NCBI RefSeq assembly: GCF_004135345.1
Contig: NZ_CP035495.1
Location: forward strand, 1,674,001 to 1,738,000
Length of the DNA stretch: 64,000 bases
Origin: Xylanimonas allomyrinae
GTDB lineage: Bacteria; Actinomycetota; Actinomycetes; Actinomycetales; Cellulomonadaceae
Direction of reading: 5' to 3'
In this document: positions 47,791 to 47,948 of the stretch, in pieces
How positions within the stretch are numbered: position 1 is the first letter of the stretch
Layout: every line of letters starts with the position of its first letter
The notes under the pieces: model-generated
What the model was told of the DNA's origin: nothing
The model's database searches: none
The model's input: only the letters and a program-made list of their open reading frames with translations
Position numbers and translations under genes: made by a program

Positions 47791-47816
47791 GGCGTCCGGG
47801 CCACGATCCGGACGCC
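47791..47816. other. Loop-conserved hairpin 1
   Basis: Perfect 9-bp stem (47791-47799 / 47808-47816) with loop GCCACGAT. Confidence 0.85.
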
Positions 47817-47837
47817 GGCGCCGGACGAACCGGCGCG

Positions 47838-47867
47838 GTACGAGCGGGGCCACGATCCCGCTCGTAC
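47838..47867. other. Loop-conserved hairpin 2
   Basis: Perfect 11-bp stem (47838-47848 / 47857-47867) with loop GCCACGAT. A smaller hairpin (7-bp stem, loop ACGAA, 47818-47836) lies between hairpins 1 and 2. Confidence 0.85.
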
Positions 47868-47872
47868 GGTTT

Positions 47873-47904
47873 CCCGCCCCCGGGGCCACGAACCCGGGGG
47901 CGGG
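47873..47904. other. Loop-conserved hairpin 3
   Basis: Perfect 12-bp stem (47873-47884 / 47893-47904) with loop GCCACGAA. Confidence 0.85.
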
Positions 47905-47924
47905 GTGCACCCCGTACGGGGTGC

Positions 47925-47948
47925 GCACCCGGGCCACGAACCGGGTGC
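47925..47948. other. Loop-conserved hairpin 4
   Basis: Perfect 8-bp stem (47925-47932 / 47941-47948) with loop GCCACGAA. Confidence 0.85.

Follow-up and report, generated by a model that had tools for sequence, protein, structure and literature searches.

An array of hairpins with a common loop downstream of adhE in two actinobacterial genera, and its possible role as a 3′-UTR-derived RNA

Genes and hairpins at the locus

The window, by which we mean the whole 64,000-nt stretch of Xylanimonas allomyrinae DNA that was analyzed, contains between adhE and ligA an array of four perfect hairpins (47791 to 47948), with stems of 9, 11, 12, and 8 bp that all close on the same 8-nt loop, GCCACGAW, or WUCGUGGC when read on the minus strand (Table 1). 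The loops at 47800, 47849, 47885, and 47933 read GCCACGAT, GCCACGAT, GCCACGAA, and GCCACGAA, respectively, on the plus strand. These stems and loops had been described in a sequence-only reading of this DNA and were confirmed here, and the small hairpin and the 18-bp palindrome that it placed among them are both present. That reading overlooked a hairpin with CUCCUCC in its loop (hairpin 0), a closing hairpin, and the linkage of the array to adhE and not to ligA. On the minus strand, the order 3′ of adhE is the hairpin at 47994 to 48026, hairpin 0, HP4, the small palindrome, HP3, HP2, the small hairpin, HP1, and the closing 18-bp hairpin, followed by the start of ligA. The large frame upstream we take to be adhE on the basis of the earlier reading and of similarity. 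It is preceded by two palindromes, TGTGAA-N4-TTCACA and TGTGGTC-N-GACC-N-C, each found in all seven genomes that carry the array; the first resembles an operator of Rex, and the second is a GntR-like palindrome.

Table 1. Features of the adhE-ligA region (window coordinates; counts refer to the seven genomes with the array)
Feature	Position	Strand	Remarks
Strong terminal (closing) hairpin, likely terminator	47750..47788	-	18 bp in the window; six compensatory pairs
HP1	47791..47816	-	9-bp stem, loop AUCGUGGC; pattern NUCGUGGC in 7/7; stem G-U in three genomes
Small hairpin between HP2 and HP1	47818..47836	-	Weakly conserved; 83.7% of cells paired
HP2	47838..47867	-	11-bp stem, loop AUCGUGGC; loop in 7/7; compensatory change at two stem pairs
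HP3	47873..47904	-	12-bp stem, loop UUCGUGGC; loop in 7/7; compensatory change at three stem pairs
18-bp palindrome, small hairpin between HP4 and HP3	47907..47924	-	Shorter or missing in relatives
HP4	47925..47948	-	8-bp stem, loop UUCGUGGC; stem invariant in 7/7; loop altered in G001 and G002
Hairpin 0, first 3′ of adhE	47952..47986	-	Terminal loop carries anti-Shine-Dalgarno word
CUCCUCC in hairpin 0 loop	47967..47973	-	Invariant in 7/7
Extra strong hairpin, adhE stop to hairpin 0	47994..48026	-	In G000, G010, and G027; not in G001, G003, G006, and G002
adhE, bifunctional aldehyde-alcohol dehydrogenase (presumed)	48038..50755	-	GTG start inferred from ribosome site
GGAGGAG ribosome site of adhE	50763..50769	-	Complementary to CUCCUCC; in 7/7
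TGTGAAAGTCTTCACA, Rex-operator-like palindrome (presumed)	50806..50821	-	In 7/7
Two conserved palindromes before adhE	50806..50838	-	TGTGAAAGTCTTCACA and TGTGGTCTGACCAC; in 7/7

The window has 10 perfect hairpins in which a stem of 8 bp or more encloses an 8-nt loop, the four of the array included, versus a mean of 3.48 and a maximum of 9 in 100 dinucleotide-preserving shuffles, and two such hairpins with an identical set of seven loop bases occurred in none of 100 shuffles of the window. The bare octamer GCCACGAW is less striking, with 13 occurrences against 5.56 expected and 1 of 100 shuffles reaching 13; the remaining GCCACGA sites listed for the window have stems of only 0 to 3 bp in the registers with 7- and 8-nt loops. 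The 12-mer GGGCCACGAWCC has five copies genome-wide, four of which lie inside the array.

CUCCUCC begins 19, 25, 28, 30, 53, 55, or 64 nt past the adhE stop codon in the seven genomes. ligA adjoins the array in five of them, but the distance is 1.3 kb in G003 and 2.5 kb in G002; because the array stays behind adhE in all seven, even where ligA is distant, the unit travels with adhE. In the window, an open frame runs out of the array into ligA, and length changes between species show that this frame is not conserved. A scan for sigma-70 consensus-type promoters, which is a weak test in a GC-rich genome, found none, and a strong hairpin stands between adhE and the array in three genomes. No intrinsic terminator with a T run was found between 47600 and 48200 by a consensus scan, and the closing hairpin is followed by TTT in G002 only; terminators that lack T runs are described in GC-rich genomes (PMC8355165).

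Fixed loops, drifting stems, and the strand

Mean pairwise column identity is 1.0 for CUCCUCC and for the two innermost stem pairs (16 columns), 0.952 for UCGUGGC, 0.865 for the outer stems, 0.581 for the linkers and small hairpins, 0.57 for the closing hairpin and its tail, and 0.44 for the first loop base, which defines the conserved head as GG-N-UCGUGGC-CC. Of the 28 hairpins, 26 retain UCGUGGC unchanged, a count that leaves out the closing hairpin of G027; the two that have lost it are HP4 of G001 and HP4 of G002. The earlier proposal of a fixed loop on changing stems is thus borne out, with compensatory changes that conserve the structure, and among the possible readings of the array, display of the loop by an RNA fits best.

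The variation within the loops follows some patterns of its own. In HP4 of G001 and G002, the loop word was lost through changes that lengthen the stem, the stem itself being identical in all seven genomes, and in HP3 of G002 the first loop base is a G, which is able to pair with the last. The free first loop base is mostly uniform within a genome, being U in all four hairpins of G010 and A in all those of G003 and G006, a hint that the four change in concert.

Covariation was tested on an alignment of the seven sequences with the 85 pairs of the window's fold (561 cells) and 500 shuffles. Paired cells make up 91.8% of the total. Compensatory changes occur at 15 of the 85 pairs (shuffle mean, 5.7), 20 cells are changed on both sides (6.6), and the covariation score is 0.143 (0.084), none of these three values being reached in the 500 shuffles, while further pair types number 32 versus 27.9 in shuffles (9/500). 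When partners were slid by 1 to 3 columns as a control, 35 to 46% of the cells were paired, with 2 to 6 compensatory pairs, a comparison that is biased toward structure because the fold was derived from one of the aligned sequences. The compensatory pairs lie in the closing hairpin (6), HP3 (3), HP2 (2), hairpin 0 (2), and the small hairpins (1 each); HP1, which changes to G-U only, and HP4, the stem of which never varies, have none.

The direction of transcription had been left open in the sequence-only reading. Folding energies do little to separate the strands, with a z score against shuffles of -8.9 for the minus-strand RNA and a nearly equal one of -8.3 for the plus strand. Wobble pairs are informative, since a G/T cell is a wobble pair in a minus-strand RNA and a mismatch in a plus-strand RNA. 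Read on the minus strand, the non-Watson-Crick cells comprise 21 G/T, 3 A/C, and 43 other mismatches, with 9 G/T versus 0 A/C in the four main hairpins; the wobble cells are partly nonindependent, three of them sharing one HP1 column. This bias points to the minus strand, the same as that of adhE, and the RNA therefore most probably represents the 3′ UTR of adhE or an sRNA processed from it.

Distribution of the array and related sequences

A DNA search of the 11 genomes of the window's genus and a triple-loop pattern applied to 221 family genomes identified the array in seven genomes of two genera, namely, 6 of the 11 in the window's genus (G000, G001, G002, G003, G006, and G010) and G027. 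Lack of conservation in close strains, or absence from everywhere else, had been named in advance as evidence against the element; what was found is an array that is shared by two genera and occurs at this locus only. The adhE end is present without the array in G004, G005, G007, and G009, and neither was found in G008, the assembly of which is 65% complete. A search of 61 family genomes for the adhE C terminus gave a match in 43; 3′ ends were examined in 30 of these, five of which have the array (L288 to L292), and all 25 examined outside the two array genera lack it.

Pattern searches gave few other candidates. The triple-loop pattern matches 73 of the 221 family genomes, seven of which carry the array, and the other matches, among those listed, have the appearance of coding DNA or of simple repeats, while a 14-base single-site pattern was uninformative, matching 192 of 200 family genomes. 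Among 60 loci from the single-site and triple-loop matches (L035 to L094), two clear hairpin heads were seen in none except L073, where two differing heads lie 666 bases apart. A scan of named-genome contigs gave at least 119 stretches, and among the matches listed the hairpin check found an array in L106 only, at the same position as in G006:C74; L174, from the same scan, shows two heads, both short at 5 bp. None of seven matching stretches from viral contigs has two hairpin heads.

A covariance model of the hairpin, built from 13 of the 28 hairpins, was used to search the 11 genus genomes at an E value of up to 1, with the best 150 of up to 11,021 candidates scored per genome. Among these best 150 candidates per genome there were 41 matches. 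Twenty-three fall inside arrays (22 at 29.0 to 39.2 bits and one at 21.3), and the 18 outside reach at most 27.8 bits, weaker than all array matches but one. Recurrence as a dispersed family, which had been considered earlier, was not found: in the 11 genomes, with the best 150 candidates scored in each, convincing matches are confined to one array per genome.

A strict two-head pattern matched 2 of 396 genomes of the taxonomic order, G000 and G427, and the match in G427 is a different repeat. In this genome, which belongs to another family of the same order, a dispersed 22-nt repeat consisting of CGCGAGAGGYTCGTGGCCC and three variable bases forms tandem runs (L331, L333, L335, and L337 to L340). 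The repeat core has 34 matches in G427 and 1 or 2 in five of the 23 other genomes searched from the family of G427, and in five of six loci examined the repeat starts 5 to 8 nt past a stop codon and has the same orientation as the frame upstream. It has the 12-mer GGYTCGTGGCCC (GGYUCGUGGCCC) in common with the adhE array, and its copies stand behind several genes; six of seven loci contain no such hairpin, and L339 has 5-bp heads. The common 12-mer is probably a matter of chance, given the many genomes and repeats searched.

Possible functions and known relatives

We tentatively favor, at a chance only slightly below even, a lineage-specific adhE 3′-UTR RNA that would act on mRNAs through its exposed loops, with base pairing as the preferred mode. 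The region read off the minus strand would be the untranslated region at the 3′ end of adhE mRNA, from which a stable RNA of about 240 nt would probably accumulate, ending at the closing hairpin and displaying, on rigid stems, CUCCUCC in one loop and WUCGUGGC in four. Such an RNA may represent a multi-seed 3′-UTR-derived sRNA that is produced once adhE is switched on, and the Rex-like site upstream of the gene gives rise to the idea of redox control. Shine-Dalgarno sequences could be bound by its CUCCUCC loop through base pairing. The GGAGGAG of adhE itself is a perfect complement in all seven genomes, which makes feedback possible, although this match is not specific because GGAGGAG is a common type of ribosome site. 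The WUCGUGGC loops would pair with GCCACGAW sites of other mRNAs, the copies providing multiple binding sites. Conservation, structure, strand bias, linkage to adhE, and the complementarity of CUCCUCC to the adhE ribosome site are observed; we infer that the RNA is made, that it ends as described, and that its loops work by base pairing.

Candidate partners of the repeated loop were sought with the pattern GGAG-N(2-18)-GCCACGAW, which has 30 sites in the genome versus 13 for the backwards-read pattern, a control that is not exactly matched in composition. Few of the 30 sites lie at plausible gene starts, and no conserved target was found among them. The most suggestive site, before a ccsB-like gene, was rejected, as GCCACGA is kept in only two of seven genomes there (G000 and G010). 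Complementarity of the loop octamer to rRNA, raised earlier as a possibility, was not seen: GCCACGA is absent from the rRNA sense strand of the window, and its occurrence inside the 23S gene (39142) is on the opposite strand, which means that the rRNA itself contains GUCGUGGC, in the same sense as the loop.

The sequence-only reading knew of no described element of this form, and here it must be corrected, since the α-r14/NfeR1 sRNAs of Sinorhizobium and its relatives are described as having three hairpins with an identical anti-Shine-Dalgarno loop motif on very different stems (PMC10746234). Like the adhE array, they combine several hairpins and an identical unpaired motif with an anti-Shine-Dalgarno word in the loop, and the loops of NfeR1 are reported to silence ntrB through base pairing (PMC10746234), which gives the favored design a tested precedent. 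In these sRNAs, CCUCCUCCC is present in all three loops, whereas the adhE array has CUCCUCC in one loop and WUCGUGGC in four; the array also belongs to another phylum and is tied to the adhE 3′ end. For an origin at the 3′ end of a gene, precedents are provided by s-SodF, which is processed from the Streptomyces sodF 3′ UTR (PMC3919588), and by CcsR1-4, which are cut out of a precursor behind a small gene (PMC10253847). s-SodF is likewise an actinobacterial 3′-UTR RNA that is proposed to act on mRNAs, but it is described as about 90 nt long, with one antisense stretch to sodN and without repeated loops (PMC3919588). CcsR1-4, the cuckoo RNAs of Rhodobacter, resemble the array in their four similar units behind a protein gene, their terminator end, and their single precursor, but are described as individual small RNAs of alphaproteobacteria, located downstream of a DUF1127 gene (PMC10253847). 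6C RNA is described as an actinobacterial sRNA with C-rich loops (PMC9569102), whereas the adhE array lacks C6 loops and has another gene neighborhood. In the window, no match to the Rfam covariance model of 6C RNA reaches the gathering score, only three rRNA families do so, and the best subthreshold match in the array region (E value, 0.55) is to a family other than 6C. 6C RNA is said, in the title of a study, to bind its targets through its loops. The loop motif of CcsR1-4 differs from that of the adhE array. CsrB-type sponge RNAs are hairpin arrays that also repeat one loop motif, which is GGA for CsrA; the loops of the adhE array have no GGA.

A literature search for the loop words in exact form, each as a whole word (TCGTGGC, UCGUGGC, GCCACGA, and GCCACGAU) returned no relevant paper, and the titles found on Xylanimonas small RNA contain nothing about such an RNA. 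The design is known, and the loop word, the lineage, and the host gene are new. The adhE array would be a second bacterial lineage with the same loop on different stems, which suggests that such multi-seed RNAs arise repeatedly. Actinobacterial regulatory RNAs are poorly known, and most actinobacteria are not known to have an Hfq-like chaperone. The array connects a central enzyme of fermentation with a probable regulatory RNA, and because five loops held on drifting stems mark functional words, each loop can be altered with its stem kept, which makes for an unusually easy test.

The invariance of the two innermost G-C stem pairs speaks against base pairing, as a pure antisense seed would not require it. 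The heads GG-WUCGUGGC-CC may instead bind an RNA-binding protein, which the four copies in the adhE 3′ UTR would recruit or titrate. These two pairs together with UCGUGGC are a conserved unit of the kind expected for a protein-recognized hairpin, and the genome contains, apart from the array, a single copy of the 12-mer that would be complementary to the entire head. Since the invariant pairs are better explained by a protein, this alternative is kept at about half the weight, although we consider it rather unlikely overall: it has no known partner protein and leaves the CUCCUCC loop unexplained, and the absence of a second hairpin site in the genus genomes searched would make the array RNA the sole structured ligand of the protein, unless it has unstructured ligands too.

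The hairpins may also form a cluster for termination and 3′-end protection of the adhE mRNA, with a loop sequence that is itself without function. Hairpin clusters past stop codons have been described as termination units (PMC8355165), and for the other adhE genes examined, the 3′ end is marked by one strong hairpin or a small number of them. This is unlikely, and clearly more so than a bound protein, because UCGUGGC is kept in nearly all hairpins while the first loop base and the linkers drift and because a ready terminator hairpin already precedes the array in G000, G010, and G027. Less probable again is that GG-WUCGUGGC-CC is the site of an undescribed actinobacterial RNA-binding factor, either protein or RNA, on mRNA 3′ ends, with the adhE array as a dedicated multicopy platform and the G427 repeats as independent users of the factor; if true, the factor would couple the expression of a fermentation gene to a wider regulon.

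A plus-strand RNA or a 5′ leader of ligA would fit the nearly equal folding of the plus strand, the position of ligA next to the array in most of the genomes, and the frame that connects the two in the window, but it is very improbable in view of the wobble bias, the distance of ligA in G002 and G003, where the array is still with adhE, and the length changes, which exclude a conserved reading frame. Least probable is a structured DNA target for recombination or a mobile element, for although integron and transposon targets are in outline extrudable palindromes, as are these with their fixed loop, the array keeps a fixed position behind adhE, is not repeated elsewhere in the genus genomes that were searched, is absent from the seven matching viral stretches, and shows a bias toward G-U, not A-C.

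A further element was seen behind adhE in genus g23. At three loci (L293 to L295), about 110 to 180 nt behind the gene, a strong hairpin carries CCUCCA in its loop, and L294 and L295 have an additional hairpin with an HP1-like stem and the loop GAGCAG. This element may be distantly related to hairpin 0, or it may be an unrelated terminator.
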